From an uncultured Chitinophaga sp. (GTDB taxonomy: Bacteria; Bacteroidota; Bacteroidia; Chitinophagales; Chitinophagaceae), in the NCBI RefSeq assembly GCF_902168175.1, contig NZ_CABHOU010000072.1:1-64000 (forward strand): DNA of 64,000 nt, written 5' to 3'. The stretch's first letter is position 1, and the number at the start of each line of letters is the position of its first letter. This document shows positions 7,181 through 30,211 of the stretch, one piece after another. The notes beneath the pieces were generated by a model. That model was not told the DNA's origin and did not search any database. It saw nothing but the letters and a program-made list of their open reading frames with translations. Position numbers and translations under genes: made by a program.

Positions 7181-7237
7181 GATTTAAATAGTTTTAGGCT
7201 CATAAAATAACGTATATGGCGCTTTATAAATGCTATA

Positions 7238-8285: not shown

Positions 8286-8606
8286 TTATAAGTTTTGCAA
8301 AGGGAAGATAAAGCCACTATACGGACGAAAGCGTAAAATTTCATTACCTTTAAAATCAATCTCGAAAGCGTAGTTGTACAGCATGCCAGGAATTAAATGC
8401 TCCGCAGGGTTTAAAACGAACACTATATAACATGTGGGCGATAACTGCATTGAGCCTTTGGGGATAAGCCTGGTCTTCGCACTCTTCCAATTTTCTCTCC
8501 ATTTGCTTAATACAGCAGCATGGCCTACGGCGTCTTCATTTGAATCTAAGTTCCAGGAAACTAATGAATGGGTGCAAAAATTAGAATAAACACGCTGAAA
8601 TAACAA
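8286..8606 (-). CDS. Hypothetical protein, probably 5'-truncated at the repeat
   Basis: An open frame of 106 codons whose only start (TTG at 8606) lies within the terminator-bearing repeat copy 2, so the gene begins exactly where the repeat ends. The protein has a plausible folded composition (VSWNLDSNEDAVGHAAVL, KTRLIPKGSMQLSP, YNYAFEIDFKGNEILRF) with no signal peptide or known motif. It ends 10 bp before the 7238-8275 gene and shares its base composition. Either a short gene with a TTG start or the C-terminal remnant of a longer one cut by recombination at the repeat. Confidence 0.4.
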   Translation of the reverse strand: MLFQRVYSNFCTHSLVSWNLDSNEDAVGHAAVLSKWRENWKSAKTRLIPKGSMQLSPTCYIVFVLNPAEHLIPGMLYNYAFEIDFKGNEILRFRPYSGFIFPLQNL

Positions 8607-8687
8607 AACCCGCTCTTAGAGCGGGTTTTACTTCGTTGGTGCCCAGTAGCGGAATGTTTTCGAACCAGTTTGTACAGATAATCAGTG
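8604..8687 (-). repeat. Direct repeat copy 2: broken tRNA 3' end plus terminator
   Basis: Matches 7097-7180 with few differences, including the same 5-base insertion in the T-loop-like part (CGGAATGTTTTCGAACC on the plus strand) and the encoded CCA. Shared decay means the copies arose by duplication or by successive integrations at the same site. Together they bracket the 7238 and 8286 genes. Confidence 0.55.
8605..8629 (-). terminator. Rho-independent terminator in repeat copy 2
   Basis: The same 25-base hairpin as at 7099-7123 (CCCGCTC/GAGCGGG flanked by A4 and T4). On the minus strand it ends any transcript coming from the HNH gene side before it reaches the 8606-7238 pair. Confidence 0.75.
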
Positions 8688-8767
8688 ACCTACTCACAAA
8701 CTGATCGTGATTCTGTTGCCAGAAGCATCTCATATTCTTAAACATATAAGGAGCAATTATTTTCGAT

Positions 8768-13308: not shown

Positions 13309-14370
13309 TTACTTAACAACCCGAAGGCGACACCCCTCTTGACTAATATAATAGTTATAAAAATCCGATGAATTTAACTGCACTATCTTACATAAATCTT
13401 CATCGGTATAGTTATAATCCGATTTGTAAACCTGAAGGATTTCCTTAATTATACCCACATCCTCCCTGGGTGGGCTTAACTCAGGTGGCTCCTGTAAACG
13501 AAACCCCATTGCCGAAAGTTGCGCCCAGAGATATTTTGCTTGGTTATCGGTTATAATAGCCAGCAGCTTAGCTTTCATCACCAAAGAGGCCATCGATACT
13601 CTCCAGTAAAGCTTTAGGTTCGTAAGCATTTTGAAATCAAGATAAGACACCTGTGCCGTAAATTCCTCAGCTGGAACCAGAAACTCGCTACCAAAAGCAA
13701 AAGCTTCCCTTTCAACATCACGACGTTCGGAAATCGGATTTTTAAAGTGCATAACCAGATGACCAAGCTCGTGCGCTATAGTTAGTCTAAAGCGATCAGT
13801 GGGTAACTTCCTGTTGATGTAGATGACCGGCTGATTTTTTTCAGTGTACATACTTATACCGTCGATCTTTTCGGCTCCAAAATCAAACGGGACTATTATA
13901 ATACCGTTGTCCTCTATAAGCTTCGTAAGATTTTCAATTTTACCTCGTGGCACCTTCCACCTGTCACGAAGTAACCTTGCGGCATCTTCGGGAGTACCGT
14001 GATCTTCAACATTCCAGCTAAATAAATTGGTTTCTGGCAGATCGATACCATCCAGCAACTTCTGCAAACCCAACCTCAACACATTCATTTTTGCTTCGGA
14101 AGTGGATAAGTTTTTCCTGGCCATACTTATTTTCCTTCGATAATAGATGTAGCTGGTGGAATAAACTTTGTCCGCCTGTAAAAAGAAATTAACAGGATAA
14201 TCTAATTTAATGCTAAGGTTTTCTACAATTTCGGATGATGGCTGCATTAGGCCGTTTTCAATTTTCGAAACAGTTCCTTGAGCCACACCCAATAAATTGC
14301 ATAGGTCACTTTGACTAAGCCCCCGAGATTCCCTCGCTAACTTAATCATGTCTGAGTTAATGGCTGACAT
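13309..14370 (-). CDS. XRE-type HTH regulator fused to ImmA/IrrE metallopeptidase
   Basis: A 353-residue protein. Residues 8-60 are an XRE helix-turn-helix (LARESRGLSQSDLCNLLGVAQGTVSKIENG). Residues 150-260 are a COG2856/M78 zinc peptidase with HELGH at 200-204 and a downstream Glu (REAFAFGSEFLVP), the third zinc ligand. In ICEBs1 and Deinococcus, ImmA and IrrE cleave a repressor in response to damage; fused forms regulate prophages, ICEs and toxin or defence operons. It is the second gene of an operon whose first gene (14396-15007) lies 25 bp upstream. The pair is divergent from the putAbiC gene and could control it. Confidence 0.9.
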   Translation of the reverse strand: MSAINSDMIKLARESRGLSQSDLCNLLGVAQGTVSKIENGLMQPSSEIVENLSIKLDYPVNFFLQADKVYSTSYIYYRRKISMARKNLSTSEAKMNVLRLGLQKLLDGIDLPETNLFSWNVEDHGTPEDAARLLRDRWKVPRGKIENLTKLIEDNGIIIVPFDFGAEKIDGISMYTEKNQPVIYINRKLPTDRFRLTIAHELGHLVMHFKNPISERRDVEREAFAFGSEFLVPAEEFTAQVSYLDFKMLTNLKLYWRVSMASLVMKAKLLAIITDNQAKYLWAQLSAMGFRLQEPPELSPPREDVGIIKEILQVYKSDYNYTDEDLCKIVQLNSSDFYNYYISQEGCRLRVVK

Positions 14371-14395
14371 AATTTATTATTTAAATATGAACAGG

Positions 14396-15007
14396 CTACT
14401 TGTTGTCCGTACCAGTCTTCCCGTCCTGTTTCTTCGCTCGTACACGCGGTACACTCTCTGCAGCAGGTACGTTATTGATTTTCGCCACCTCAAATATAGC
14501 TGATTGTTTTACTTCCGTAGTTAAATCTTTGAACCACACAACAGTGTCGCCTTCGCGGCAGACAAGAACAATCTTAATTAACTGCGTCCAGGAAGAATCC
14601 GGCAAGAAACCAGCAACGAGCAAGGTCGGCTCTACACCGAAACCTGCAAAGTCAATTTGCTTATAATATTTTTCTGTTTGTAAAGTCTGCGCGTTTGATC
14701 CCTTCAACTCGTCGTCCAACTTCTTGAACCTGATAAAGACCTCACCGCGTATTAAAATCCCCACTATTCCCTTAAACTCTCCGACAACAACTTCACTGTT
14801 ACCGGCAAATGCCTTCGCCAAACGCAATTTAATAAAATCATTAATCAAGGAGCCACAAGTTCTTGGTTTAAGATCAACTACACCGTATCGCGAACGCTCC
14901 GTGCGAACGTCCAAATATTCTCGAAAAGAACTATTTATAACTTCCGCTATTACAGGGAAGTACTTCCTAACTATTTGTTCAACCTCCTGTTGACTTAAAA
15001 AGGCCAT
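14396..15007 (-). CDS. Hypothetical protein paired with the XRE-ImmA regulator
   Basis: From the ATG at 15007 (MAFLSQQEVEQIVRKYF) this is 203 residues; an upstream in-frame TTG at 15046 is the only other start. The chain is alpha/beta with no membrane helix, and has a lysine-rich tail (RAKKQDGKTGTDNK). The central LAKAFAGNSEVVVGEFKGIVGILIRGEVFIRFKK resembles the N-terminal nuclease-like or carrier domains found next to ImmA-type genes. I cannot name a family. The position suggests it is the substrate or partner of the downstream peptidase, which is inference. Confidence 0.6.
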   Translation of the reverse strand: MAFLSQQEVEQIVRKYFPVIAEVINSSFREYLDVRTERSRYGVVDLKPRTCGSLINDFIKLRLAKAFAGNSEVVVGEFKGIVGILIRGEVFIRFKKLDDELKGSNAQTLQTEKYYKQIDFAGFGVEPTLLVAGFLPDSSWTQLIKIVLVCREGDTVVWFKDLTTEVKQSAIFEVAKINNVPAAESVPRVRAKKQDGKTGTDNK

Positions 15008-15206
15008 ATAACTATTTTTAAGGGTTTGTTGGGCAAGGTTTTCCAAAAGTACTTTTTTTATTCCAAAAAATATTCTTCCAAATGTCTTTTTTTTATTCCT
15101 AAGTTTGTGAGCGAAACCTAAAGGTCAGTTACCAACACTCAATTTGACAGATACTAATTAAATCGCCGACGAACTGTTTATCGTTTTATACCTAATTAAT
15201 TCTCTT

Positions 15207-16400
15207 ATGACAATTCTAATCTTTTTAGTTTGCGGAACCTTACTCGCCCTATCATTAGGGTATCTGGCAAAATTTACAAGAGTTTATGTTAAAAAATACA
15301 TTAAAGATCAGAATGGAGAGGTCGCTAAACTCGGATGGTTCTCAATTTTTCTAATTCTTATAGCCTTAATACTCATCATCTTCTCGTTCTTGGCACCAGT
15401 AACGTTAACGATGAACGCTCTCACCCCTGAACTGAGTTTTAAGGGGAAGGGTGAAATAGGCGACACCATTGGTGGAATCATGAATCCATTTATTGCGTTG
15501 GCGGGGGTGATTGTTACAGGTTTGGCTTTTTACATGCAATATAAAGCTAATGAGTTGCAAAGAGTATTATTTGCGGAAGGTCAAAAAGCTAGTAACGAGC
15601 AGTTCCAAAAGCAACTGAACTACCAACAATTTGAAGCTCAGTTTTATGAGATGCTTAAATTACACAAAGAGAATGTAAATGAGATGGAATTGAATGGAAA
15701 ACAATTGATAGAAGATAGTTGGATTCCTCTTTCTATCACTAAGCGTAAAGTGTTTCAGGAAATGCAAAGGGAGTTTGAAACTTTGTTAGAACTGGCGTCT
15801 ATCAATAGAAATAATAGACTTCAAGATTTGGAAAATCCAAATTTTCGCTCACGCTATTATTCGCTGTCTAGTGAGACATTCAATGAATGTTATAAAATTT
15901 TCTTTTGGGGATTTCATGCTGCTAATAATTACAAGTTGACCGAACATGCGATAGAGGATATCCAGAATATCCAAAAATATCAATATAAGGGAAGTGATGA
16001 TTTTAACGCAATTCGTGCGAACGATCTGAACTTTTCTATTGAGAGTTTTAAAGGGCATTCATGGTTGTTGGGCCACTATTTTAGGCACCTTTATCTATTG
16101 GTGACTTTCGTAGTTGACAGTAAAGTAGTCTCAACACACGATGAGAAAATGCGCTATTTAAAAGTCGTACGAGCGCAACTATCAAATTTTGAGCAGATCA
16201 TGCTTTTTTACAACTGGATTAGTGGCTTTGGCGACGCGTGGGAGGACGATACTCATAAATATTTCACGAAGTACAAAATAATCCATAACCTGCCGCACAC
16301 ATTTCTATTTGAAAATGACTTTATATCGCGAAAAGTTGACTTTCTCAGAGCTAGATATAAGGAAAATGAAAAAGACGAATTATTTGAAATTGACGAATAG
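15207..16400 (+). CDS. Putative phage abortive infection protein (putAbiC-like)
   Basis: A 397-residue protein with three N-terminal membrane helices (about 1-20, 45-70, 87-107). A coiled-coil stretch follows (YKANELQRVLFAEGQKASNEQFQKQ), then a soluble domain with QFEAQFYEMLKLHKENVNEM. HSWLLGHYFRHLYLLVTFV and YLKVVRAQLSNFEQIMLFYNWIS come after that. This order is characteristic of the putative phage abortive infection family (putAbiC). The family is thought to respond to phage at the membrane; the mechanism is unknown. It is the only plus-strand gene at this spot, divergent from the XRE-ImmA operon across a 200-bp AT-rich spacer. Confidence 0.75.
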   Translation: MTILIFLVCGTLLALSLGYLAKFTRVYVKKYIKDQNGEVAKLGWFSIFLILIALILIIFSFLAPVTLTMNALTPELSFKGKGEIGDTIGGIMNPFIALAGVIVTGLAFYMQYKANELQRVLFAEGQKASNEQFQKQLNYQQFEAQFYEMLKLHKENVNEMELNGKQLIEDSWIPLSITKRKVFQEMQREFETLLELASINRNNRLQDLENPNFRSRYYSLSSETFNECYKIFFWGFHAANNYKLTEHAIEDIQNIQKYQYKGSDDFNAIRANDLNFSIESFKGHSWLLGHYFRHLYLLVTFVVDSKVVSTHDEKMRYLKVVRAQLSNFEQIMLFYNWISGFGDAWEDDTHKYFTKYKIIHNLPHTFLFENDFISRKVDFLRARYKENEKDELFEIDE

Positions 16401-16907: not shown

Positions 16908-19826
16908 ATGACGATTTCCCTAAATGAATATATCAGGCTAAGTAAAGCAAACAAAGCGCAACTCCGCGCAATTACAAATACAGAAGGGCCACAACTTATT
17001 ATTGCCGGTCCCGGATCTGGCAAGACGTTCACCTTAGTAGAACGAATAATTTATCTGATTTTGAATGGAATTATACCCGAAAAAATCTTTATTGCCACTT
17101 TCACTGAAAAAGCAGCCAAAGAGCTAATTACGCGGGTATCTAATCGCCTTTTAGAAATTGACCTGAAAGTAAATCTGAATGAAATGTACATTGGCACTCT
17201 TCATTCGATATTTCTAAGAATTTTAGAAGAAAACAGGGAGTTTACACGGTTACGAAGGAATTTTAGATTATTAGACAGCTTCGATCAAAAATATTTCATT
17301 TTTAGAAATATTAACTCTTATCTCAAAGTTGATAGTGCTGAAATTCTTTTGGGTGGTCATAAGGCGAACCGCTGGGATAAAGCTCAAAAGATAATTAATT
17401 ATATCAATAAGATAAGTGATGAATGTTTAGAAATTGAAGCATTAAAAAATGCAAGAGATCAAGGTATACAAGTTCTTGGTAAATTCTACGAGATATATCT
17501 GCAACAACTATCTGATGAGAATGCTTGCGATTTTAGCACTCTCCAGTCAGAGACACTTTTCCTGCTTGAAAATCAGCCGACAGTTTTAAAGAAACTTCAC
17601 CATTCCCTTCAATATTTCATGGTAGATGAATACCAAGATACAAACACCATTCAGGAAAAAATTATCCTCCTTCTATCGAATGTAAATAATAACCTTTGCG
17701 TCGTTGGTGATGACGATCAAGGACTTTATCGTTTCAGAGGTGCCACAATTAGAAATATACTAGAATTCCCGTCAAATTTCAAGTCGCAAATTTGTGAAAA
17801 AGTTATTTTAGACATAAATTATCGCTCACATCCTGACATAATAAATTTATATAATAACTGGATTGCTGAATGTGATTGGAGAGAAGGATCAAAATCATTT
17901 AGATTTGATAAAGTTATTAAACCCCGTGAGGGACTATTTTCAGAAATGCCTGCCGTTGTTAAACTGGGAAGCGAAGGTGACTGGGAGGATTATTTTAATA
18001 ATGTTTATAAGTTTATCGACGCTTTGAAAAAGTCTGGTGGCCTATCTAACTATAACCAAATTGCTTTTTTATTTAAATCAGTAAAAAATGACAACGTAAT
18101 TGCCCTTGCTCAATATCTGGAAGAAAGAGGTATACCAGTTTTCTCTCCGAGGTCTGCGCTTTTTTTTGAACGTACTGAAATACAACTGCTGCTTGGGGCA
18201 ATCATTTTTATCTTTCCAAACCTCTTTGAAGACCTCAAGTGGAATGAAGAAGCGAATCTCTCCATTTGGGACACTTACCTCTCTTACAAAAACCGATTTG
18301 CAAATGAGATTAGAAAAGATTTAAAAAAGCACGAGCCGCTTTTGAAGTACTGCCAAAAAAAGGCCAAAGAACATTTAACTCTTTCCAAGAGCACCAACTA
18401 TGGCTTTTCTGGTCTGCTATATCAACTGCTCGAATTTCCCATGTTCGCTGATAGTCTTCAGACTGGTTTGAGTAATGATAAGACAAGCCTCAGAGCCGCT
18501 TACAATATTGCTATGCTATCAAAATTGTTGTACAAATTCGAGTATTTGTATAACTTAAATACACTGGGACCCGAAAATCTTCAAAAAAGCCTTCAAAATT
18601 TATTTAACCAATTCCTTCGCTTTATTATAGAAGGAGGAATAGAAGAGTATGAAGACTTTGATGAATTTGCTCCTTCTGATTGCGTATCATTCATGACTAT
18701 TCATCAATCAAAAGGATTAGAATTTCCGATAGCAATAGTGGGATCTCTGAATCTCAGCCCGAGGAAACAATACGATAAGACAGATGAAATATTGCAAAAT
18801 GAATTTTACAAGAAGGCCCCGTTTGAACCGCTAGAACGCACAAAGGATTTCGATTTTTATCGTCTTTTTTATACAGCATTCTCCAGACCACAAAACTTGC
18901 TAGTCCTCACAGCGAAAGAGAAGAATGGCCAAGGTAAAAATCCATCCAAATATTTCGAAAAGATATACTCGTCTTTGTCATCATGGAATACTAAGCAATT
19001 TGATGGCTCGAAATTATCATTAGAAACTGTTAAATCTGCAAATATTAGACATGAGTATTCTTTTACCTCTCATATCCTTCTGTTTGAAAATTGCCCACTT
19101 CAATATAAATTTTATAAAGAACTTGAATTTGTGGAAGTAAGAACTGGCGGCGTACTGGGAGGTAGCTTACTTCACCAAACAATCGAAGACATTCATAAGG
19201 CAGTTTTGCGTAATCAAGAAGACACTCTGACAGATGAAAATATAACGGACTGGTATAATAACAACTATATTTTACTATCAAAACAACAGCGATCATATCT
19301 ACAACAAGGGCAGTTAGCTGCACTCTTGCATCAGGTTCTTAGATATAGAGATAGGAATCAACATCAATGGGATAGGATTAAGGAAGCCGAGGTAGACGTG
19401 TCACTAGTAAAGGACAGCTACATAATCAAAGGCACTATAGATCTTATTAAAGGGGACAACAATACGGTAGAGCTAATTGATTTTAAATCGGGGAACAAAC
19501 CTGATGTGAACACTAATGACCCTAAAGACAAGCAGCGGCTAAACCAGTACCAGCGACAATTAGAAGTTTACGCCTACTTAGTCGAAGAAAGAACTGGGTA
19601 TAGGGTTTCGAAAATGCATTTATATTACCCGAAAGAGGATGAAGGAAGCCCTTACATCACTTTTTCTTATGAATCATCGAGAATTAATCAAACAATAGCT
19701 AATTTTGACGGAGTCGTTAATAAAATTGAAAGGAAAGATTTTGACATGGCTAACGTTAGAAAATCAGAGAAGCAATGTGGAGACTGCGATATGAGATATC
19801 ATTGTAATCCTAAACAATACCAGTAA
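16908..19826 (+). CDS. UvrD/Rep-family helicase with C-terminal Cas4/AddB-like Fe-S nuclease
   Basis: A 972-residue superfamily 1A helicase fused to a RecB-family nuclease. Helicase motifs are Q motif (NKAQLRAI), Walker A AGPGSGKT (33-40), motif Ia TFTEKAAKEL and motif II VDEYQDT (239-245). GDDDQGLYRFRGA (267-279), motif IV region DINYRSHPDI and motif V TIHQSKGLEF then VI FYTAFSRPQNLLVL complete the set. The C-terminal nuclease has IKGTIDLI and VELIDFKSG (D and D-x-K), QLEVYAYL, and an iron-sulfur set: one Cys in LFENCPLQYKF plus C957-x2-C960-x5-C966. This combination resembles AddB/Cas4 end-processing nucleases. It is the first gene of a three-gene operon, 8 bp before the methyltransferase gene. 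Very AT-rich. Confidence 0.9.
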   Translation: MTISLNEYIRLSKANKAQLRAITNTEGPQLIIAGPGSGKTFTLVERIIYLILNGIIPEKIFIATFTEKAAKELITRVSNRLLEIDLKVNLNEMYIGTLHSIFLRILEENREFTRLRRNFRLLDSFDQKYFIFRNINSYLKVDSAEILLGGHKANRWDKAQKIINYINKISDECLEIEALKNARDQGIQVLGKFYEIYLQQLSDENACDFSTLQSETLFLLENQPTVLKKLHHSLQYFMVDEYQDTNTIQEKIILLLSNVNNNLCVVGDDDQGLYRFRGATIRNILEFPSNFKSQICEKVILDINYRSHPDIINLYNNWIAECDWREGSKSFRFDKVIKPREGLFSEMPAVVKLGSEGDWEDYFNNVYKFIDALKKSGGLSNYNQIAFLFKSVKNDNVIALAQYLEERGIPVFSPRSALFFERTEIQLLLGAIIFIFPNLFEDLKWNEEANLSIWDTYLSYKNRFANEIRKDLKKHEPLLKYCQKKAKEHLTLSKSTNYGFSGLLYQLLEFPMFADSLQTGLSNDKTSLRAAYNIAMLSKLLYKFEYLYNLNTLGPENLQKSLQNLFNQFLRFIIEGGIEEYEDFDEFAPSDCVSFMTIHQSKGLEFPIAIVGSLNLSPRKQYDKTDEILQNEFYKKAPFEPLERTKDFDFYRLFYTAFSRPQNLLVLTAKEKNGQGKNPSKYFEKIYSSLSSWNTKQFDGSKLSLETVKSANIRHEYSFTSHILLFENCPLQYKFYKELEFVEVRTGGVLGGSLLHQTIEDIHKAVLRNQEDTLTDENITDWYNNNYILLSKQQRSYLQQGQLAALLHQVLRYRDRNQHQWDRIKEAEVDVSLVKDSYIIKGTIDLIKGDNNTVELIDFKSGNKPDVNTNDPKDKQRLNQYQRQLEVYAYLVEERTGYRVSKMHLYYPKEDEGSPYITFSYESSRINQTIANFDGVVNKIERKDFDMANVRKSEKQCGDCDMRYHCNPKQYQ

Positions 19827-19834
19827 AATTAAAT

Positions 19835-21805
19835 ATGGCAAAGCAAGAATCGCTAGGCTTGAAAGTCGAGCAAAAAGTAGAGTCTATAGAAGAATATAAG
19901 TTCGAGCCCATCAAAGGTTATCCAATGCTACATTGGAAAGGTAAAAGGCCATTTACTTCAACTCAATATTATCCAGCACAACTAAAAGAACAACATGGGC
20001 AAGAGCTCGATGGATGGATAAACAAGATTTTCTGGGGCGACAATCTTCAGGTAATGAGTCATCTTTTAAAGATGTACAGGGGGCAGGTAGATTTAATATA
20101 TATCGACCCTCCCTTTGATAGTAAGGCCGACTATAAGAAGAATATAACACTCAAAGGAAAAAATATAAGTAATGATCACTCCACCTTTGAAGAAAAGCAA
20201 TATACTGATATATGGTCAAACGATGACTATCTGCAGTTTATGTATGAAAGGATCATTCTTTTGAGAGAATTACTTTCGGAAAAAGGCTCTCTTTTTCTAC
20301 ACTGTGATTGGCATAAAAGCCATCTTCTAAGAATGATATTAGAAGAGGTTTTTGGCGCCTCAAATTTCGTAAATGAAATTATTTGGAAAAGAAAATCAGC
20401 GACATCTTATGCAGGTAAACAACTCGGGATTGCAAATGACACTATTTTCTGGATGGTAAAATCTAATAATTATACATACAACCCAATTTATTCTCTTGAT
20501 GATGAAACTACGAAAAAATACATAAAAGAACGATACACTTTAAAAACACCAGCAGGTAGAGTATATAAGTTAGATAATTTAGGGAACCCAGAATATCGTC
20601 CAAATTTGATATATGAATACAAGGGCTGCAAGCCACCGCCAAATGGCTGGGCTGTTTCACTAGAACGAATGAAAAAAATGGACGCGGAAGAGCGTCTAGA
20701 ATTTCCCAAGAAAGAAGGTGGAAGGCTGCAAAGAAGGCAGTACTTGGATGAATATCGGGGTCAAATAATTCAAAATATTTGGGCAGATATTTTTCAAGTA
20801 AATTCCCAAGCCAAAGAAAGAACGGATTATCCAACCCAGAAACCTGAAACATTATTAGAAAGAATTATAAAAATAAGTTCCAATCCTGGAGATCTGGTTC
20901 TTGACTGTTTTATGGGATCAGGAACAACACAAGTTTCTGCTCTGAAAATGGGACGAAGATTCCTTGGAGCTGATATAAATTTGGCATCTATTCAAACGAC
21001 ATCCAAAAGGTTAATTAATACTTCAAAAGACATAAATGAAAAGGCGCCCGAGATAATGTTCGAGTCAGAAAATTCGGAAGGAGAAGGCTTGATGAAAGTT
21101 GATAAATTTTACACTGGATTTCAGGTATACAATGTAAATCATTATGATGTATTTAGAAATCCTTTACAAGCTAAAGAGCTTCTTATTAAAGCGCTTGAAA
21201 TTCAACCTCTTCCCAACAACGCCTTGTATGACGGGGAAAAAGACGGCAGAATGGTAAAAATAATGCCGATTAATCGGATAGCAACCCGTGCTGATTTAAA
21301 TGAATTAATAACTGGATTTGATTATAAGGTTTTTGAAAAGAGGAATGAAGTAAGTCCTGGGAAGGCAGTCGAGCATTTGCAGTTAGTTTGCATGGGACAT
21401 GAGCCAGACCTGGCCGCCATTCTTCAAAAACAAATGCCATACAAATTGGATATAGAAGTAGTTGATATACTCAGAGATAAATCCAATCTTGAGTTTAAAA
21501 GAGACTCTGAAGCAGACTTCAAAATAAAAGATGGGGATCTTATAATTGAACAGTTCTATCCAATGAACTTGCTTCAAAAACTTTCACTCATGAAAGAAAA
21601 TGTAGAAGATTGGAAAGAACTAACTGAATCGGTAATGATTGATTTCAACTACGACGGAGCTATTTTTGAACCACAGGAAGTAGATGTTCCTCCAAAGGAT
21701 GAAGTAGTAAAGGGAGTTTACAAAATCCCCGAAAACGCTGGAACTATAAGAGTCAAAATAACAGATTTGCTGAGTGAGTCTCTTGAAATTGACGTTAATA
21801 TATAG
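19835..21805 (+). CDS. Type III-like site-specific DNA adenine methyltransferase (Mod)
   Basis: A 656-residue beta-class N6-adenine methyltransferase. Catalytic motif IV is IDPPF (91-94 for DPPF) and comes before the SAM-binding motif DCFMGSGTT (359-365), which is the order of type III Mod subunits. The target-recognition region lies between (about 180-320). TDYPTQKPETLLERII precedes motif I as usual. The C-terminal about 270 residues are an extra domain, probably for contact with Res. It would methylate one strand of an asymmetric site to protect host DNA. It lies 8 bp after the helicase-nuclease and 132 bp before the Res gene. Its recognition sequence cannot be read from here. Confidence 0.9.
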   Translation: MAKQESLGLKVEQKVESIEEYKFEPIKGYPMLHWKGKRPFTSTQYYPAQLKEQHGQELDGWINKIFWGDNLQVMSHLLKMYRGQVDLIYIDPPFDSKADYKKNITLKGKNISNDHSTFEEKQYTDIWSNDDYLQFMYERIILLRELLSEKGSLFLHCDWHKSHLLRMILEEVFGASNFVNEIIWKRKSATSYAGKQLGIANDTIFWMVKSNNYTYNPIYSLDDETTKKYIKERYTLKTPAGRVYKLDNLGNPEYRPNLIYEYKGCKPPPNGWAVSLERMKKMDAEERLEFPKKEGGRLQRRQYLDEYRGQIIQNIWADIFQVNSQAKERTDYPTQKPETLLERIIKISSNPGDLVLDCFMGSGTTQVSALKMGRRFLGADINLASIQTTSKRLINTSKDINEKAPEIMFESENSEGEGLMKVDKFYTGFQVYNVNHYDVFRNPLQAKELLIKALEIQPLPNNALYDGEKDGRMVKIMPINRIATRADLNELITGFDYKVFEKRNEVSPGKAVEHLQLVCMGHEPDLAAILQKQMPYKLDIEVVDILRDKSNLEFKRDSEADFKIKDGDLIIEQFYPMNLLQKLSLMKENVEDWKELTESVMIDFNYDGAIFEPQEVDVPPKDEVVKGVYKIPENAGTIRVKITDLLSESLEIDVNI

Positions 21806-21856
21806 CAATTACTATTTAACAACAAATAGAATTGTACTTATATTTTAGGACGATGA

Positions 21857-21886
21857 CGATTTGCCCACGCTATGCAGGCAAAATCG
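21857..21886 (+). promoter_or_regulatory. Inverted repeat in the Mod-Res spacer
   Basis: CGATTTGCC and GGCAAAATCG pair around an 11-base loop with one bulged base, in the 132-bp gap between Mod and Res. It could be an attenuator, a processing site, or an operator that limits Res expression. A 10-codon frame (MRNLIYTIND) also ends 4 bases before the Res start. Confidence 0.35.
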
Positions 21887-21937
21887 AAATAACTATAAAA
21901 TATGAGAAATCTTATCTACACAATCAATGATTGATAA

Positions 21938-24574
21938 ATGGCTCAAAAGAACAAGAACGATATAGAATTCCCCTTCTATGTATACCTGAAAGTATTTTAC
22001 GATCAGGAACGGAAAAAAATTCTTTCATCCTATAACACCCTTACTAGAAAATTTTTAAGCTTCAATGACCCCGAGTCTTCGACAGCGTTTCTTAGAAAGC
22101 CGCAATTTGAAGCACTGGAAATTTATATATTTCTTAAAGAATTTTGTGAAAACAAACATTTGCATACCGTATTTGAAGAATGGTACTATAAAACTGGCAA
22201 ATTTGAAAATAGATCAGACGCTGGCATCACAAGATTCGGACAAACAACACTTTTTGGTCCTCTAGAAACTAAAGACTCTGATGAAAAGAGAGCCTTCAAA
22301 GCCGTATTCGAACAAATAAAAATGTTCGAACAAATTTATCCCAATTTTATCTTTGCACTTACCATGGGGCTAGGTAAAACTGTACTAATGGCAACTTCGA
22401 TTTTTTATGAGTTCTTGTTAGCTAATAAGTACCCGAAATCCGAAAGATATTGTCATAATGCCCTAGTGTTCGCTCCCGACAAAACAGTACTTCAGTCACT
22501 TAAAGAGATCCAAACATTTGATAAATCGAAAGTCGTACCACCTGAATATATTAATTGGCTTGAAACGAATCTTAAGTTTTATTTCCTTGATGAAAGCGGG
22601 GACGCGCTCAATGCAATAGAGCAATCCAAATTCAACATTATCATCTCAAATTCCCAGAAGATTATACTTAAAAAGCAACATAAGGAGAAGACGGCCTCGG
22701 AGGAACTGTTTGAAGATCATTCTAAGTCCTATAAGGCAAAAAGCCTCAATAAGGATTTTGAAGATTTGTATGGCTTTGATATTGATACGGATCAGGATCT
22801 GATAACGAATCAACGTTTCGCCAAGCTTACACGAATGAGGCAGTTGGGAATTTATGTTGACGAAGCTCATCATGTATTTGGCAATCAGTTGGCGATGGAT
22901 TTTGGCTTAAAAAAATCTTCAACGAGCTTGAGAGTTACAATCAATGAGTTAGCTGAGAATCTAAAGGAGGCAGGAACTTTTGTTGTAGGCTGCTACAACT
23001 ATACCGGTACGCCTTACGTAGGTAGCAGATTACTACCTGAAGTAGTGTATGCATATGGACTAAAAGATGCTATAGACAATAAGTATTTAAAGAAAGTTAG
23101 TATAAGCGGATTTACAAATATAAAGGATCAAACTAACGCCTTTGTACGTACTGCGATTAGCGAATTTTGGAATACTTTCGACGGTTATAAATATGAGGGA
23201 TGCTTGCCCAAAATGGTTTTCTTTGCATCTACAATTGATGAGTTAGAAAAAGAGCTTCGTCCTGCTGTTGAAGACATATTAAGTGAACTACGTATACCTA
23301 CTAATAAGATACTTGTTAATGTGGGTGATCCAAAGCTGACATCAAATGATGAACTCAGAGAATTCAAAAACTTAGATAGTCCAATTTCCGAAAAGCAGTT
23401 TATCCTACTAGTTAATAAAGGCAAAGAAGGGTGGAATTGCCGTTCTCTTTTCGGTGTTGCACTTCATCGTCAACCCAAATCAAAAATCTTTGTTCTGCAA
23501 GCAACGATGCGCTGTTTACGGCAGATCGGTGACGAGCAGGAAACCGGACTTGTTTTTCTTTCTGATGAAAATGTTAAAATCTTAAACGATGAACTGGAGG
23601 AAAATTTCAAGTTATCAGTCGATGATCTTAATAACGCTGGAGCTATATCTCAGTTAGTAGAGGTTAGGCTTGTACCACCTCCTGTTAAAGTGAAGCTCAA
23701 GAAGATAACCAAATTACATCAACTCTTGCCTAAAAAATTGACAGAACAAATAAATCTTCAGTTAAAAGACATTGACACTGACAAATACAAGATTATCAGA
23801 TCGGAAAGAAAGATAACAGATCTTTCCAAAAAGATCGGACATGAAAAGGACTTCTCTCATATTAAAGAACGGAGAGATTACTCAATTTTAACTCTCGTCG
23901 CTGAAATTTCAAGATATTTAAATGAATCCCCAGTTCGAATTAAATCTATTCTTCAAACTACTGTTGAAGGTATTGACGTATTGCTAGACACTGTAAATTC
24001 ATACAATGAAATTCTCTACGACTGGGTTGTTCCCAAATTATTTACTGAGCTTTATACTATTAAAGAGTTTACGGACACAGAAGAAATTGAAATAGAACTA
24101 GTAAAGAAGCCTAAAGAAGGAGATTGTTATAGAGTAAATACGAAGAACAAGGAACTAATTGCCAGTGTCTACTCAGAGACGTTTCTAAAATATAAGGGTA
24201 AATCTTTCCATCTTGACAATTATTGCTTTGACAGCATACCCGAAAGTAAAATGTTCGAGACGTTGCTCGAAGACGAAAGAATAGAAAAGGTGTGGTTCAC
24301 AGGGATGCTTACTCATGGGCAATCCGATTTCGTTATCAATTATATCGATCCAGAATCTCATACAGTTAGAGGGTATTACCCTGATTTCCTGTTAAAGTTA
24401 AAGGCTTCTAACGGAATTGATGAGTATGTTATTCTTGAAGTGAAAGGGGATAATAAGATTGATGATGCAATTGTCAAGGCGAAATCGGAGTATGCTAGCC
24501 AAATAGCTGGAGCGAGTGGAATGTCTTACAAGTTAATAAAAGGTAGTGATGCATTGGCAGGTTTAAGTATTTGA
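21938..24574 (+). CDS. Type III-like restriction subunit: SF2 helicase with C-terminal PD-(D/E)xK nuclease (Res)
   Basis: An 878-residue DEAD/DEAH-type translocase. Walker A is MGLGKT (143-148), motif II VDEAHH (307-312), motif III YTGTPYV, and the second RecA domain includes NKGKEGWNCRSLFGVAL and QATMRCLRQIG. Near the C-terminus YYPDFLL (Asp 816) and VILEVKG (Glu 834, Lys 836) form the PD-ExK endonuclease seen in type III Res. With the upstream Mod it would give ATP-dependent restriction of unmodified DNA. The helicase-nuclease in front is not part of classical type III systems. The start at 21938 overlaps nothing and follows TGATAA directly. Confidence 0.9.
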   Translation: MAQKNKNDIEFPFYVYLKVFYDQERKKILSSYNTLTRKFLSFNDPESSTAFLRKPQFEALEIYIFLKEFCENKHLHTVFEEWYYKTGKFENRSDAGITRFGQTTLFGPLETKDSDEKRAFKAVFEQIKMFEQIYPNFIFALTMGLGKTVLMATSIFYEFLLANKYPKSERYCHNALVFAPDKTVLQSLKEIQTFDKSKVVPPEYINWLETNLKFYFLDESGDALNAIEQSKFNIIISNSQKIILKKQHKEKTASEELFEDHSKSYKAKSLNKDFEDLYGFDIDTDQDLITNQRFAKLTRMRQLGIYVDEAHHVFGNQLAMDFGLKKSSTSLRVTINELAENLKEAGTFVVGCYNYTGTPYVGSRLLPEVVYAYGLKDAIDNKYLKKVSISGFTNIKDQTNAFVRTAISEFWNTFDGYKYEGCLPKMVFFASTIDELEKELRPAVEDILSELRIPTNKILVNVGDPKLTSNDELREFKNLDSPISEKQFILLVNKGKEGWNCRSLFGVALHRQPKSKIFVLQATMRCLRQIGDEQETGLVFLSDENVKILNDELEENFKLSVDDLNNAGAISQLVEVRLVPPPVKVKLKKITKLHQLLPKKLTEQINLQLKDIDTDKYKIIRSERKITDLSKKIGHEKDFSHIKERRDYSILTLVAEISRYLNESPVRIKSILQTTVEGIDVLLDTVNSYNEILYDWVVPKLFTELYTIKEFTDTEEIEIELVKKPKEGDCYRVNTKNKELIASVYSETFLKYKGKSFHLDNYCFDSIPESKMFETLLEDERIEKVWFTGMLTHGQSDFVINYIDPESHTVRGYYPDFLLKLKASNGIDEYVILEVKGDNKIDDAIVKAKSEYASQIAGASGMSYKLIKGSDALAGLSI

Positions 24575-24853: not shown

Positions 24854-26305
24854 TTATGCAGCTAGGGGTGACTCCCATAGCTGCATTTCTCCTCCCTGGT
24901 TGTAGCGCCCCATCTGAACTACTTTTCCTGGCTCCGGCAACGTGACTACCGAATCCACATCGTGCTGGAATGTGTTGTCACCGCGGAATTTTCCTGCTTT
25001 TGTAGACTGAAAAATAAAAATGAATGCTTTGCCCTGGTTATTCTCCCTCAATAATCGCAAATCGGCTGGCGAAAACCCTAAACTATTAACACTATCCAGG
25101 ACAACAAAATCATACCCATCAATGGTTGAAGGCAAATCATCCGCAATATAAAGGCGAGGGTGCTTTACCCGCAAAAATTTATCTTGAAGCGTTTTGCCAA
25201 ATTTCTCCTCCTTCGCCACGAAAAGAACACACCCATGATTGTGTGCGAGATAACCGGCAAATTCGCAGGCGAATGTCGATTTTCCATATTTAGGTAAGGC
25301 GGAAATCATCATGCTAAAATTTGGTGAAGGATCGCCTATCAAGTCACGGTACTTACCTGTAAATCCCAACGTTTCAAAGTGGACACCAGAAAAATCCATG
25401 CTACTCATAATTGGCGAAGTAGTAGCCGGCATTTCACAGTTACATCCGTCAAGCACTCCCTGTAAACCATTTAGCTCGGCATCATCAATATTAAGTACGT
25501 TCTTCGAACCGGCAGCAAGGTATCGGCGCAGGTTCTTCTGAATTTGATGAATGTTACTGTAGTATGGGGACTTATCAGTAATAATACCGCGCTCTATTGA
25601 TTTGTCTATCGCGGCAAGCAAGCTCTTTGCTTTTTCATGCACACCTGTTTTTCCGTGCAGTCCGATGTATCTCTTTATCAACTGCACCTCTGGCATTATA
25701 TCTTCTTGTCCCACACTGGCCTGTAAATTTTTTAGCATGTCATCGCTAATAACGATCGTACCGCTATCGGGCATGGTATTCACGGCCTTTATAAGCGTGT
25801 CTTGGATATAAAGAATCTGCGCTGCATACGGAGAGGTTTTACGAATCTTCTTTTCCAGCATGGCTTTTTGTAAAGCATTGAGAAATCGCAATACCTGGTC
25901 GCGCTCCTTATCCGTATTATGGAGTTTCAAGAAGCGTTTTATAAATTGGAGTTCCGGTCGAATAATTTCAACCGGAGCCGGCGTTACGGGCTTCGGCGTG
26001 TTTGCGTACTGACTTAACCTAACAGGGCCATTCGGCTTATTAGCCTTGGCGGCTGCTTTTCGTGTGCGCATTGGTGCGGATGCTTCAACTCCAGGCGGCT
26101 GCTTATCAAGTAACAAGGCCGCCAGTGCCAGGAAGTACAGACGCACAGTTTCGGCAATTTCTGGTTCCTCATCATAATCTCGCCAGTCTGTTCCGCCAGA
26201 CGTTAGTTCTTTTACGTACTCATGTCCTTCCTGAATGTTTTTAGGCATTTCGGAAAAGTTAAGGCCGGCGGCTACTTCAAAATAGTTTTCGGGAGTAATA
26301 TTCAT
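24854..26305 (-). CDS. RecA-like P-loop ATPase of mobile-element type, with internal repeat
   Basis: A 483-residue protein. The C-terminal about 160 residues are a RecA/DnaB-like ATPase: Walker A SALPKYGKST (335-344), Walker B YDFVVLDSVNSLG, then FIFIFQSTKAGKFRG as a sensor/motif 3 region. The N-terminal part holds two copies of a 58-residue helical repeat at 118-175 (ELQFIKRFLKLHN...YAAQILYIQDTLIKAV) and 206-263 (EVQLIKRYIGLHG...YYSNIHQIQKNLRRYL). Proteins like this pair with strawberry-notch helicases on Bacteroidota mobile elements. It is 11 bp downstream of the truncated helicase gene, so the two form one operon. Base composition is less AT-rich than the restriction operon. Confidence 0.75.
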   Translation of the reverse strand: MNITPENYFEVAAGLNFSEMPKNIQEGHEYVKELTSGGTDWRDYDEEPEIAETVRLYFLALAALLLDKQPPGVEASAPMRTRKAAAKANKPNGPVRLSQYANTPKPVTPAPVEIIRPELQFIKRFLKLHNTDKERDQVLRFLNALQKAMLEKKIRKTSPYAAQILYIQDTLIKAVNTMPDSGTIVISDDMLKNLQASVGQEDIMPEVQLIKRYIGLHGKTGVHEKAKSLLAAIDKSIERGIITDKSPYYSNIHQIQKNLRRYLAAGSKNVLNIDDAELNGLQGVLDGCNCEMPATTSPIMSSMDFSGVHFETLGFTGKYRDLIGDPSPNFSMMISALPKYGKSTFACEFAGYLAHNHGCVLFVAKEEKFGKTLQDKFLRVKHPRLYIADDLPSTIDGYDFVVLDSVNSLGFSPADLRLLRENNQGKAFIFIFQSTKAGKFRGDNTFQHDVDSVVTLPEPGKVVQMGRYNQGGEMQLWESPLAA

Positions 26306-26316
26306 AGGAGTATTTT

Positions 26317-28599
26317 TTAGGCTGCGAAGCGGAACCGAAGTTTAAGCGCCTTGGCCTTCATTACTAGGCGACGGCGGCGGTCAAAGTCAACTATACGGGC
26401 CGAGGTTTCAGGAGCCGGGTTTTCGGGAGGTGGCAGCATAATGGCTTTTCGGGATGCGGCGACCCGTTTAGACCGATCAACCTGGCGGAATTGTTCCGCT
26501 GTAACCACTACAGATAAATTATGGTTACGTTCCAGCACGGTTACGAAATTTGAAATATCGTCCGCCCGCACATCTGCCACCATCTTGTCGGCCGTCTTCT
26601 GGAAGTTATTGCCAACTACCAGTGCCAGCAAGTCTTTGTCCAGGTAAACGGCACCGCCTTTACTTCGGCTGTCGGGTAAAATAATTTTAAATGAATTCTT
26701 TCCCCGGAAAATTGACAAATCACCGTCTGCCGTAAACCCTTTATTAGGCTGTAACGACTTAATAAAAGGTAACGCGGAGGCTATAGGGATCGTGACCGAT
26801 CCATCGACCTCCTTAGACATATTCCATTCCTCTGGTAATAAAATGCCTTTTTTTATCTGCTGATCTACAGTGGTATAACTTACCAGCTTTCCAGGAAAAT
26901 CTGCAAATGCCTGTAGAATGTTTCCCGTCACGATATACCGGGTACTCCGATCCACGTTTTTAGCCTTTACAGCAGCTTCCCATTCGGTCAAGACATCATT
27001 AATCGTAAGTTCAGGCATGCCGGTACTTTGTCCCAACGTCGCTAATAAATCAGCAGACATTGAAGCTGGAACGACCAAATATTTGCGTCCATTTGCGAGT
27101 GCAAATCGCAACTTCACCTGCGACGGAGCAAATGGGTTTGACTTCCTGTTATCAATCTGAAGCCCGATAAAAACGGCGGTTACACTTTCATGTCCACCAG
27201 CAAATGTCGTAATAGGGTACCGCAATAAACGCCCCGGATAGAAGAAGCGGAATAACTGTAATAGATAACGCTTATTGTTTTCGGCCTTTTCTTTTATCGT
27301 AACATCTTTTTTATTACGGGCGGTTTCTAACTCGCTTTTTCGCATTTTATACGCAGCTTGCCATTCATCCAAATCGGCTTCCAACTTCTTCATTTTCTTT
27401 TCCCGGCCAATGCTTTCGATCAGAATTTCGTAATGCGAACGCGTTTCATCAAGTTCTTGGGATAGTCGCGCCTGGTGATGGCCCTCAAAATCGTGGATAA
27501 TGTTCGCGGTATAAACATCAGGAGTAACACCGGCTAACGATTCGTTTAGAAGTTGGTGGAGCTGCTCGCGTGTGAAAGGCTTTCGCAGCACGTTTGCGGT
27601 AACAGTTTCTAGCACACTATCGGTACCAAAGGCACTGTCGTTCCCTGTCCCCATCTTAACAACCTGCGTTCCGGTGGTTTCCGCTTCGAGGTTCATAGCT
27701 TCCACTTCTAAGTCATATTCGCCAACCTGGCGTAGATAATCAACTTTCTCTACGTAGCGTTGAGCCATTTCATTATAAAACTCCTCCTGCATATGGGTAG
27801 ATAACACGGCAACGCGGCCCGATACTCGATGGGCGGCATCTTCTCCAGTGGAAGCCTCACTATTTCCGGCCTCAAGAAGATGCAGTGGATCACCCAGCAG
27901 CACGTTGACCTCGCGATTGTCTGCTAGGTACTCCACGACAAGTTTATCGCCATATTTATTCAGGAAATCCGGCACATCAAGTATAGCGCTTGACTGCTTT
28001 TGATTAGAAGTGGTATTAGCGTCAAGCGACTTTAGTTTTTTCTGCAACATCATCATGAGGCGAACCTCAGCTGGGATAGCGCTCGTGATGTAATCATAAA
28101 TTGGCTTATAGATTTGGCCAGTTCTGTTGATTCGGCCCCGTTTCTGCACCTCGGTATTGATGTCCAGTTCGGCCTGCAGTACAATCATCACACGTTGACG
28201 CACCTTCTCGCGAGGTACTTTTCCTGTCGGTATGGCATGGGCAGAAGCTCCAGTGCTGCCGGACTGGTTAATCATCAATACATCTACCTCATCATTGTTA
28301 AAACGCCGGAAAGCGTCATTCGGATTCAACTTTTTGCGCCCGACAACAAGGCCCATGTTTGTTTCCAGGTTTAGCTGAACTTCATACTTTCGCCCTGTGA
28401 CCTCCGCGACCCGGTAGCCAGCGTCCTGTAATATTTTGATGATAACATCGATAGGCGAAATGGTAATTCCCGTCGATATATTTACGATACTGGAAGTGAT
28501 GCGGTGGTATTCTTCCGTAGCTTCCGGCCCCAATTCCGCCAGCTGGAAAGTCCCTTGCGTAAAGCAACGGGCCGCTTTTCTATACCCTAGGGTAAGCAC
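26317..28599 (-). CDS. Strawberry-notch-type helicase C-terminal part, N-terminus missing
   Basis: About 740 residues matching the C-terminal half of SBNO-like helicases. Seen are VLMINQSGSTGASAHA and ELDINTEVQKRGRINRTGQ (helicase motif VI with the arginine finger), followed by the long helical SBNO region and a coiled coil. The first helicase domain with Walker A is absent. The frame begins at a GTG that lies in the antisense of the serine recombinase N-terminus (residues LTLGYRKAARCFTQ are antisense of it). So a recombination or deletion near 28555-28570 removed the 5' half. It is probably non-functional as a helicase. Confidence 0.7.
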   Translation of the reverse strand: MLTLGYRKAARCFTQGTFQLAELGPEATEEYHRITSSIVNISTGITISPIDVIIKILQDAGYRVAEVTGRKYEVQLNLETNMGLVVGRKKLNPNDAFRRFNNDEVDVLMINQSGSTGASAHAIPTGKVPREKVRQRVMIVLQAELDINTEVQKRGRINRTGQIYKPIYDYITSAIPAEVRLMMMLQKKLKSLDANTTSNQKQSSAILDVPDFLNKYGDKLVVEYLADNREVNVLLGDPLHLLEAGNSEASTGEDAAHRVSGRVAVLSTHMQEEFYNEMAQRYVEKVDYLRQVGEYDLEVEAMNLEAETTGTQVVKMGTGNDSAFGTDSVLETVTANVLRKPFTREQLHQLLNESLAGVTPDVYTANIIHDFEGHHQARLSQELDETRSHYEILIESIGREKKMKKLEADLDEWQAAYKMRKSELETARNKKDVTIKEKAENNKRYLLQLFRFFYPGRLLRYPITTFAGGHESVTAVFIGLQIDNRKSNPFAPSQVKLRFALANGRKYLVVPASMSADLLATLGQSTGMPELTINDVLTEWEAAVKAKNVDRSTRYIVTGNILQAFADFPGKLVSYTTVDQQIKKGILLPEEWNMSKEVDGSVTIPIASALPFIKSLQPNKGFTADGDLSIFRGKNSFKIILPDSRSKGGAVYLDKDLLALVVGNNFQKTADKMVADVRADDISNFVTVLERNHNLSVVVTAEQFRQVDRSKRVAASRKAIMLPPPENPAPETSARIVDFDRRRRLVMKAKALKLRFRFAA

Positions 28600-30211
28600 A
28601 GATGATCAGGCAGACGGATATAGTCCAGCTCACCAGGAGGATGCTTTACAGCGTCATTGTGTAAAAGAAAATATAATCGTTAAGGGCGTTTTTCATGAAG
28701 ATTATTCAGCTAAAACATTTGAACGACCAGAGTTTAATAGGATGCTCTCAATCATTAAGAAACAGCGTAATACTGTTGATTTATTTTTGATTACAAAATG
28801 GGACAGGTTCTCCAGAAACTTTGCAGAAGCATACCGAATGATAGGAGTACTCAAAAAGCTGGGAGTAGAGGTACAGGCGATTGAGCAGCCGTTGGATATG
28901 GAAATACCCGAAAGCAAAATTATGTTGGCAATCTACCTTACCGCACCTGAGGTGGAAAATGACCGTCGCGCACTTAATACCCTCCATGGCATGAGGCGAG
29001 CCAAGAAAGAGGGGCGATATCTTGGGATTGCCCCTCGCGGCTATTCCAATGGACGTGACGCGGAAAACAAACCAATTTTGGTTCCTAATAAAGACATGGC
29101 AACGGTAAAATGGTGTTTTGAAGAAATGTCCAGGGAGATTTTTGATATTCAGACGTTGTGGCGAATGGCGCGCCAGAAGGGTCTAAAAGTTCAAAAAAGT
29201 CAATTTTGGAGCATGTTACGCAATCCCGTGTACTGTGGTAAGGTTTTTATAGCCGCCTACAAAAATGAACCAGCGCATTGTGTTGCGGGAATTCACCCGC
29301 CTATTATAAGCGAGCATCTTTTCAACGAAGTTCAGGATGTGCTAAGGGGTAGGCGCCGGAAAGTTAGAATTGATGCGAAACACCATATTACTGAGAATCT
29401 TCCTCTACGCGGATTTCTAATTTGCAAAAATTGCGGTCAGCCTCTTACCGGAAGCGGATCAAAGGGAAATGGCGGAGTATACTATTATTATCATTGTATG
29501 ACCGCTAGAAAATGTAACGAGCGGTTCCGTGCCTCCGAGGCGAATGAGGCTTTCATTAGGGTGCTACAGACGATCGCGGTAAATGGGGATGTTTTGTGCG
29601 CCTACGCGGCAAAAGTTCACAAAGCCCTGGAAAAAGGGCAGACCAGCGATAAAAGTGAAATAGTCACAATCGATGATGCAATCTCCAAAATAGGCAATCG
29701 GCTCCAAAATGCCCGAACATTATTGCTGGATGGGGAATTGTCAATGACTGACTATAATGAAATTAAGACAAACCTTTTGGGGGAGCAGCAGGCACTTACT
29801 GCTCGTAAGCATAACCTTCAGCAAAAGCCCAAAATAACAGAAGATTATATGAAAGCGGGGGGCGATATCCTGGCGAACATAGCGACCCGCTTCGCCGCAG
29901 CAAATTCGGAGGGTAAAAAAAAGATCATTGGTTCGATCTTTCCGGGAAAGTTGATTTTCCAGGAAAATAAAGTTCGAACCACGGAGCCGAATGTGATACT
30001 AGAGCTGATAGGCAGGATGGGAAAGGATTTGGACGGGTCTAAAAAGGAAAAGGTTGGAGAAATCTCCAACCTTTCCGCTAGTGTGCCCAGAACAGGAATC
30101 GAACCTGCACACCCTTTCGAATACAAGATTTTGAGTCTAGCGCGTCTACCAATTCCGCCATCTGGGCAATGCCTTTCGCATTGTGGGATGCAAATGTATG
30201 TAATCAAATAA
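28499..30211 (+). CDS. Large serine recombinase with chimeric N-terminus and tRNA-antisense tail
   Basis: Site-specific recombinase, 570 residues from the ATG at 28499. The resolvase domain begins AAFLYPRVSTDDQADGYS (nucleophile Ser in RVST), with KWDRFSRN. A recombinase domain (GIAPRGYSNG...MLRNPVYCGKVF) and a zinc ribbon follow (CKNCGQPL and the CMTARKCNERF pair), then a coiled coil (about 29680-29830). Two oddities: the about 20 residues before KQRAAFLY are antisense of the helicase gene and no start lies closer, so the real start was lost. And the last 43 residues (from VPRTGIEPAHPFEY on) are the antisense of tRNA-Leu. Probably the integrase of the island. Confidence 0.8.
   Translation: MRWYSSVASGPNSASWKVPCVKQRAAFLYPRVSTDDQADGYSPAHQEDALQRHCVKENIIVKGVFHEDYSAKTFERPEFNRMLSIIKKQRNTVDLFLITKWDRFSRNFAEAYRMIGVLKKLGVEVQAIEQPLDMEIPESKIMLAIYLTAPEVENDRRALNTLHGMRRAKKEGRYLGIAPRGYSNGRDAENKPILVPNKDMATVKWCFEEMSREIFDIQTLWRMARQKGLKVQKSQFWSMLRNPVYCGKVFIAAYKNEPAHCVAGIHPPIISEHLFNEVQDVLRGRRRKVRIDAKHHITENLPLRGFLICKNCGQPLTGSGSKGNGGVYYYYHCMTARKCNERFRASEANEAFIRVLQTIAVNGDVLCAYAAKVHKALEKGQTSDKSEIVTIDDAISKIGNRLQNARTLLLDGELSMTDYNEIKTNLLGEQQALTARKHNLQQKPKITEDYMKAGGDILANIATRFAAANSEGKKKIIGSIFPGKLIFQENKVRTTEPNVILELIGRMGKDLDGSKKEKVGEISNLSASVPRTGIEPAHPFEYKILSLARLPIPPSGQCLSHCGMQMYVIK
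30052..30071 (-). terminator. Terminator of tRNA-Leu
   Basis: GGTTGGAGA-AA-TCTCCAACC, 9-bp arms; on the minus strand it is followed by TTTTCCTTTTT. It lies 12 bp beyond the tRNA 3' end and inside the 3' coding end of the recombinase. Confidence 0.8.
30084..30167 (-). tRNA. tRNA-Leu (anticodon CAA)
   Basis: On the minus strand the 84-base sequence folds into GCCCAGA...TCTGGGC acceptor. The D-loop is GGCGGAATTGGTAGACGC, the anticodon loop CTCAAAA (anticodon CAA), the long class II variable arm CTTGTATTCGAAAGG, and the T arm GCAGG-TTCGATT-CCTGT. The discriminator is A; the next bases are CAC, so CCA is not fully encoded. It is the right-hand boundary of the AT-rich island. Confidence 0.95.

Follow-up and report, generated by a model that had tools for sequence, protein, structure and literature searches.

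Here we report that three adjacent genes at positions 16,908 to 24,574 of a 64,000-nucleotide stretch of contig NZ_CABHOU010000072.1 (assembly GCF_902168175.1, an uncultured Chitinophaga sp.), the whole of which we refer to as the window, form a conserved, horizontally mobile and widely shared unit. The genes encode a UvrD-like superfamily 1 (SF1) helicase fused to a Cas4/AddB-like nuclease (UvrD-Cas4) and the Mod and Res proteins of a type III-like restriction-modification (RM) system. Directly supported by the data are the genes themselves, their intact catalytic motifs, their conserved order, the joint inheritance of UvrD-Cas4 with Res and the swapping of the Mod recognition region between systems. 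We regard it as somewhat probable that the three genes make up a mobile type III-like restriction unit equipped with its own end-resecting nuclease, which would destroy DNA after Res has cut it. The features of the locus are as follows (nucleotide positions in the window, strand, description).

16908–19826, +: UvrD-like SF1 helicase fused to Cas4/AddB-like nuclease, 972 residues (Pfam, NCBIfam, alignments, structure model)
16950–18917, +: SF1 helicase part, residues 15–670 (Pfam UvrD-helicase at 15–292, UvrD_C to 670)
19068–19805, +: PD-(D/E)XK nuclease part, residues 721–966, with C729, C957, C960, C966, D845, D858 and K860
19835–21805, +: Mod, beta-class DNA methyltransferase resembling EcoP15I Mod, 656 residues (Pfam, profile comparison, alignment)
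20360–20809, +: target-recognition region of Mod, residues 176–325, hypervariable (identity per bin; uncoupled from Res)
21806–21937, +: Mod-Res spacer, 132 nucleotides, strong predicted hairpin, single copy in the genome
21938–24574, +: Res, divergent type III-like SF2 helicase with C-terminal PD-(D/E)XK nuclease, 878 residues
22361–22381, +: Walker A of Res (TMGLGKT)
24227–24541, +: nuclease part of Res, residues 764–868, FDS-x2-E769 ... PD816F ... E834-V-K836

The coordinates of the open reading frames (ORFs) bear out a first-pass annotation of this DNA, made from the letters alone, which had placed three ORFs here with 8 bp between the helicase and Mod; the gap is exactly 8 nucleotides (19827–19834). 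The 132-nucleotide gap between Mod and Res was absent from that annotation. This spacer has an RNA folding z score of −4.38; at the same position two relatives have an ORF instead (L023, 97 residues, and L039; L numbers denote loci), and in a relative of the same genus there are only 26 bp.

In order to establish how widely the arrangement is kept we have used Res as bait, running a Res alignment against a genome set with a single representative of each species, which gave 215 relatives, and have searched the ORFs around the best 80 of these with profiles for Mod and for the UvrD fusion. Mod is found in 78 of these 80 loci, and in 68 all three genes are present in the order UvrD, Mod, Res on the same strand, with UvrD upstream. 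Both intergenic gaps are at most 100 bp in 55 of the 80, some of the genes overlapping. By record title the 80 loci represent 13 phyla: Bacteroidota, Pseudomonadota, Bacillota, Spirochaetes, Acidobacteria, Chloroflexota, Cyanobacteria, Desulfobacterota, Poribacteria, Kapaibacteria, Fibrobacteres, Myxococcota and Verrucomicrobia. Five of the 12 loci without an adjoining UvrD fusion are contig ends (L022, L058, L064, L089, L101); in L024 the contig does carry the fusion, 8.5 kb upstream of Mod and separated from it by other ORFs, and for L044, L056 and L065 an intact or truncated fusion is present on short contigs elsewhere in the respective genomes. The genomes of L043, L045 and L063 hold no UvrD fusion passing an E value of 1e-40, save a 36% identical frame of 771 residues in that of L045. 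The proposal in the first-pass annotation that the trio be sought as neighbors in other genomes is thus borne out, the helicase-nuclease both co-occurring with Mod and Res elsewhere and being inherited with them, as described below.

Plasmids carry the system as well. Res matches occur in 27 plasmid records, in 14 over at least 80% of the Res length and in 13 over part of it only, and the first eight that we inspected (Tunicatimonas, Spirosoma, Phaeobacter, Nitrosomonas, Blastomonas, Vibrio, Enterococcus and Yoonia) all carry the trio in the order UvrD, Mod, Res, with two further genes between UvrD and Mod on the Spirosoma plasmid. Of the 13 partial records one was inspected, an Enterococcus plasmid (L159, 9253–10926); what it retains is a truncated piece of Res close to IS1216, with neither UvrD nor Mod. 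A search of 99 genomes, including 59 from the same genus, brought to light a single further carrier of the trio, a same-genus relative. Two further records are of note: one titled Acutalibacteraceae phage NatCom_11578 (L158, 6460–14613) has at one end the UvrD fusion, a 246-residue protein without Pfam family, Mod and Res, and in L070 (7991–12655) the Mod and Res profiles match a single frame of 1554 residues, either a natural fusion or an assembly error.

As a control we have taken canonical type III loci, in which Res carries the PF19778 (RE_endonuc) domain. None of 19 such loci has a UvrD fusion within a context of ∼18.5 kb, the sole match to the UvrD profile being weak (82 bits); the 19 were drawn from 35 PF19778 matches in 31 genomes, all of the window's class, and the 80 loci of the trio span many phyla. 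Taken with the counts above, this control places the association far beyond coincidence. When 395 genomes of the class are surveyed, just two, G000 and G087, hold the UvrD fusion (E ≤ 1e-60), and the same two are the ones with full-length close relatives of Res; the class-wide search listed eight of the 395 at an E value of 0.001, the best after these two being G099 (2e-41, 31% identity over part of the length). On plasmids the 15 best fusions include all 14 records with near-full-length Res, the exception being a cyanobacterial plasmid (Annamia). More distant fusions on Priestia and Peribacillus plasmids adjoin other Mod/Res pairs, which means that partnership of the helicase-nuclease is not confined to a single Mod/Res branch.

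Joint inheritance can be quantified from pairwise distances, which we have compared by Mantel tests over 70 loci having all three genes (window, plasmid and genome copies, after removal of rows failing score or length limits). Near-duplicates are retained in this set (L017/L077, L016/L021 and L093/L096), and its pairs are not independent. Distances of UvrD-Cas4 follow those of Res very closely, r = 0.976, with values of 0.818 for UvrD-Cas4 and the Mod core and 0.838 for the Mod core and Res; in each of these three comparisons none of 2000 permutations reaches the observed value. The recognition region of Mod (window residues 176–325), on the other hand, is uncoupled from Res, r = 0.041, a value reached by 276 of 2000 permutations. 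Res identity reaches 80% or more in 203 pairs; in 201 of these UvrD-Cas4 identity is 75% or higher, and in 200 that of the recognition region falls below 50%. In the pair L040/L041 both Res and UvrD-Cas4 are 99% identical with a recognition region at 29%, and L097 and L017 show the reverse pattern, with Res at 76% and the recognition region at 89%. L040 and L041 lie in metagenome-assembled genomes titled Desulfobulbaceae and Kapaibacterium, of different phyla, reflecting either recent transfer or contamination or an error in binning. Systems thus trade recognition regions, in keeping with what a restriction specificity should do, and UvrD-Cas4 stays with Res. This argues that UvrD-Cas4 is not the reader of the target and belongs instead to the effector side, a conclusion about linkage rather than contact.

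The same region of Mod stands out in its alignment, with identities between homologues of 15–32% per 25-residue bin over residues 176–325 and of 57–87% in the other bins, except for residues 1–25 (37%), 401–425 (7%) and 651–656 (28%). Pfam N6_N4_Mtase matches Mod at 5.1e-50, in profile comparison it matches 6k0w (3.2e-33) and the Mod chain of 4zcf (9.5e-33), and motif IV (DPPF) precedes FMGSG, the order of the beta class. As judged from sequence, Mod is thus of the EcoP15I type, with beta-class motif order and a variable recognition region, as in type III RM systems in the broad sense.

Res is more divergent. Pfam gives ResIII at 5.3e-5 and Tn7_TnsA-like_N at 1.1e-7, and across relatives ResIII is found in 44 of 44 Res proteins and the TnsA-like nuclease in 43 of 44, with PADLOC REase_III matching 37 of the 44, weakly. 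In an alignment of 88 rows E769 and D816 are present throughout; E834 and K836, as well as the tested residues of Walker A, are present in 87, the remaining row being gapped in each case. When the profile of the 88 Res sequences is aligned by hhalign with that of 19 canonical ones a probability of 92.6 is obtained (E value 4.5e-7, 353 columns, 17% identity), the alignment spanning motor domain 2 and the nuclease, and the first Foldseek match of the Res model is EcoP15I Res (4zcf_C, 1.2e-11, 553 columns). Sequence and model together point to an SF2 ATPase with a C-terminal PD-(D/E)XK nuclease that is homologous to EcoP15I-type Res. PF19778, present in 31 of the 395 class genomes, has no match in the window's genome, placing this Res outside the canonical branch. 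The description "type III Mod and Res" given in the first-pass annotation therefore holds in the broad sense, with the amendment that Res belongs to a divergent branch unseen by PF19778. The window Res is also missed by PADLOC-DB 2.0.0 at an E value of 0.001 (0.002 in another scan), and annotation based on these profiles may thus undercount the family.

For the UvrD fusion Pfam returns UvrD-helicase (PF00580, 2.8e-68), UvrD_C (7.9e-17) and PDDEXK_1 (PF12705, 3.1e-20, residues 721–966), and NCBIfam cas4 aligns with residues 807–968 at 3.9e-12, with 46.4 bits, under its curated cut-off of 65. The UvrD helicase and the Cas4/AddB-like nuclease with its C957-x2-C960-x5-C966 cluster had been recognized at the outset and are present; a fourth cysteine, C729, which completes the set, had been missed. 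All four are invariant in the window and eight plasmid copies (9/9 rows) and in a wider alignment of 72 rows, the window included, that pass score and length limits (72/72). In nearly all of these 72 rows the residues of Walker A, DEYQ and motif VI are kept. UvrD-Cas4 and Res alike show almost no variation at the catalytic positions of nuclease and motor across the alignments. The first Foldseek matches of the UvrD model are to AddA (4ceh and 4cej, 4.0e-29 and 5.6e-29); AddA and several RecB chains align over both helicase and nuclease (model residues 5–919 and 15–935), with high root-mean-square deviation (rmsd), and AdnB aligns across the helicase. As modeled, UvrD-Cas4 resembles the end-resecting helicase-nucleases AddA and RecB.

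In the mechanism that we propose Mod would methylate a target, probably at adenine, set by its exchangeable recognition region, marking host DNA as its homologues do. Mod and Res would bind unmodified incoming DNA, and Res, by homology to EcoP15I, would move or slide with ATP and cut via its C-terminal PD-(D/E)XK nuclease. UvrD-Cas4 would then load on the cut ends, unwind 3'-5' and degrade the DNA, acting as a private resector of the AddAB/RecBCD kind and turning a single cut into irreversible destruction with neither repair nor ligation, also in the case of invaders that inhibit the host RecBCD or AddAB. Every biochemical step, as well as contact between UvrD-Cas4 and Res and protection against phages or plasmids, is put forward here as a proposal; the resection step is suggested by the fold, by the intact nuclease and motor and by the linkage to Res. 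In the usual picture of restriction the cut is followed by degradation by host exonucleases. An operon with its own resector, if real, would offer an explanation of how restriction might succeed against phages that block RecBCD or AddAB. According to the accessible part of PMC12407980, phage end-binding proteins keep RecBCD off DNA, and such blocking is a possible selective reason for a resector of one's own.

The main rival to resection after cleavage takes UvrD-Cas4 as a core subunit of the restriction complex, recruited by Mod and Res at a recognized unmodified site, and assigns to it the making or licensing of the cut, Res serving chiefly as translocase. The correlation of UvrD-Cas4 with Res (0.976), higher than that of the Mod core with Res (0.838), the close spacing or overlap of all three genes in 55 of 80 loci and the intact state of both nucleases would all fit such a subunit. 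However, exchange of the recognition region lowers the correlation of the Mod core, and the two values therefore do not make for a clean comparison. In addition, Res keeps a complete nuclease of its own, and UvrD-Cas4 lies 8.5 kb upstream of Mod in L024 and could not be located in the genomes of three other loci, so that we consider the core-subunit model rather unlikely. A protective role is more doubtful still: rather than attacking invaders, UvrD-Cas4 might repair or resect chromosome breaks that Res introduces where a host site is briefly unmethylated, or aid the establishment of the mobile element. RecB/AddA-like proteins are repair enzymes, the accessible part of PMC5704561 suggests partial redundancy with RecB, and the system is often found on plasmids. 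On the other hand, the host genome already holds other UvrD/RecB-type genes (frames of 806 and 1060 residues). Furthermore, the methylation pattern of type III systems makes self-cutting rare. Mere clustering of independent defense genes might be suspected from the setting, a defense island in which a putAbiC protein (15207–16400) and an RmrA-like protein (13309–14370) are encoded, and from the unrelated effectors nested in the operon at some loci. With order and strand fixed in 68 of 80 loci, the fusion in 0 of 19 control loci and r = 0.976, clustering is already disfavored and appears highly improbable.

Returning to a restriction unit with its own resector, a broader proposal, which we advance tentatively, is that the operon is a distinct restriction machine in which a Mod with swappable recognition region, a TnsA-like Res and resection by UvrD-Cas4 form one co-evolving unit, freeing restriction from any need for the host RecBCD or AddAB, and which serves as a cassette for further effectors (OLD-TOPRIM, CHAT, SF1 helicase, PLD and, mainly in Proteobacteria, a Tiamat-like ATPase). 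Genes inside the operon include those of OLD-type ATPase-TOPRIM proteins (L026, L034, L088), a MkoA-like SF1 helicase (L055), CHAT and HNH proteins (L075) and a PLD protein (L026); the operon holds these nested defense-type effectors as if it were a cassette. One gene, defined as a cluster by blastp, recurs in 20 copies at 19 loci, mainly of Proteobacteria by title (L059, L061, L066, L067, L069–L071, L073, L074, L076, L079, L080, L083–L085, L087, L092, L094 and L097), on the opposite strand upstream of the trio in 19 of the 20 copies, at a median distance of 286 bp. The member at L059, the only one scanned, matches PADLOC TmtA and has Sacsin-type and NOV_C domains, and over 15 of the loci the distances of the gene follow those of Res (r = 0.84); by sequence its product is probably a Tiamat-like ATPase. 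The window copy of the operon has neither nested effectors nor the Tiamat-like gene.

In the window itself the operon adjoins other defense-like genes, and the block has a G+C content of 34–37%, as compared to 46–51% from 26 kb to the window end. The putAbiC-domain protein (3.1e-18, + strand), with hydrophobic N-terminal segments, lies upstream of the operon and is a further defense candidate. On the − strand at 13309–15046 are the RmrA-like gene, encoding a helix-turn-helix and IrrE-like peptidase protein (PADLOC RmrA, 8e-61), and, just upstream of it, a gene for a 216-residue protein without Pfam family; the pair looks like a toxin-antitoxin-type defense and is presumably what is called RosmerTA. 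An 85-nucleotide direct repeat (94%) at 7098–7182 and 8604–8688, ∼1.4 kb apart, lies at the edge of the low-G+C island, with a 25-nucleotide palindrome near one end. Between the island and a tRNA-Leu gene (30083–30167, −) are a gene with a Strawberry-notch-type helicase domain and one for a 483-residue protein without Pfam family (24854–28599, −), and a 30-nucleotide repeat (80%) is found at 28530 and at the tRNA (30149).

The first-pass annotation had matched the three-gene arrangement to no named system. Hudaiberdiev et al. (2017, PMC5704561), in the accessible part of that work, already report Mod and Res of type III systems as the commonest neighborhood of UvrD-Cas4 fusions and propose an ancillary role of the fusion in unwinding and cleavage, so that novelty is limited. 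New here are the quantified linkage, the swapping of recognition regions, the divergent Res branch and the cargo defense genes inside some copies; near-identical systems with different recognition regions also offer a natural series from which rules relating recognition region to site might be derived. Within the open-access literature searched we have found no system name for, or functional test of, UvrD-Cas4 with Mod/Res, and the term UvrD-Cas4 in no other paper. Like the neighborhood described in the accessible part of PMC5704561, a Cas4-like pfam12705 nuclease fused to a UvrD SF1 helicase beside type III Mod and Res, the window has UvrD and pfam12705 in one ORF with adjacent Mod and Res. 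The same part notes WYL regulators near some loci, and here a WYL gene precedes Mod in L063; it gives context only, with neither name nor test.

With canonical type III systems such as EcoP15I and EcoPI the unit shares a beta-class Mod with variable recognition region and a Res with SF2 motor and C-terminal PD-(D/E)XK nuclease; it differs in a Res that lacks PF19778 and is 17% identical over the aligned part, and in a third gene found in 0 of 19 canonical loci. Type III enzymes recognize an asymmetric site, require two such sites head-to-head and cut 25–27 bp away. The complex is Mod2-Res1, according to the accessible part of PMC4005696.

Like AddAB, AdnAB and RecBCD, UvrD-Cas4 has an SF1 helicase and a C-terminal RecB-family nuclease in one chain, with high rmsd in the model comparison, and a four-cysteine nuclease is typical of AddB and Cas4. 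Unlike them, it is a single subunit with no partner helicase-nuclease in the operon, which is one of restriction and not of repair. Gabija (GajA, an OLD nuclease, and GajB, UvrD-like) shares the use in defense of a UvrD-like helicase and a separate nuclease; GajB models match the helicase part of the window UvrD, and an OLD-TOPRIM-type gene is inside the operon at three loci. No GajA (OLD ATPase-TOPRIM) was found among the window neighbors scanned, and GajB is not known to carry a Cas4-like nuclease. In contrast to Gabija, self would here be distinguished from non-self through the marking supplied by Mod and Res.
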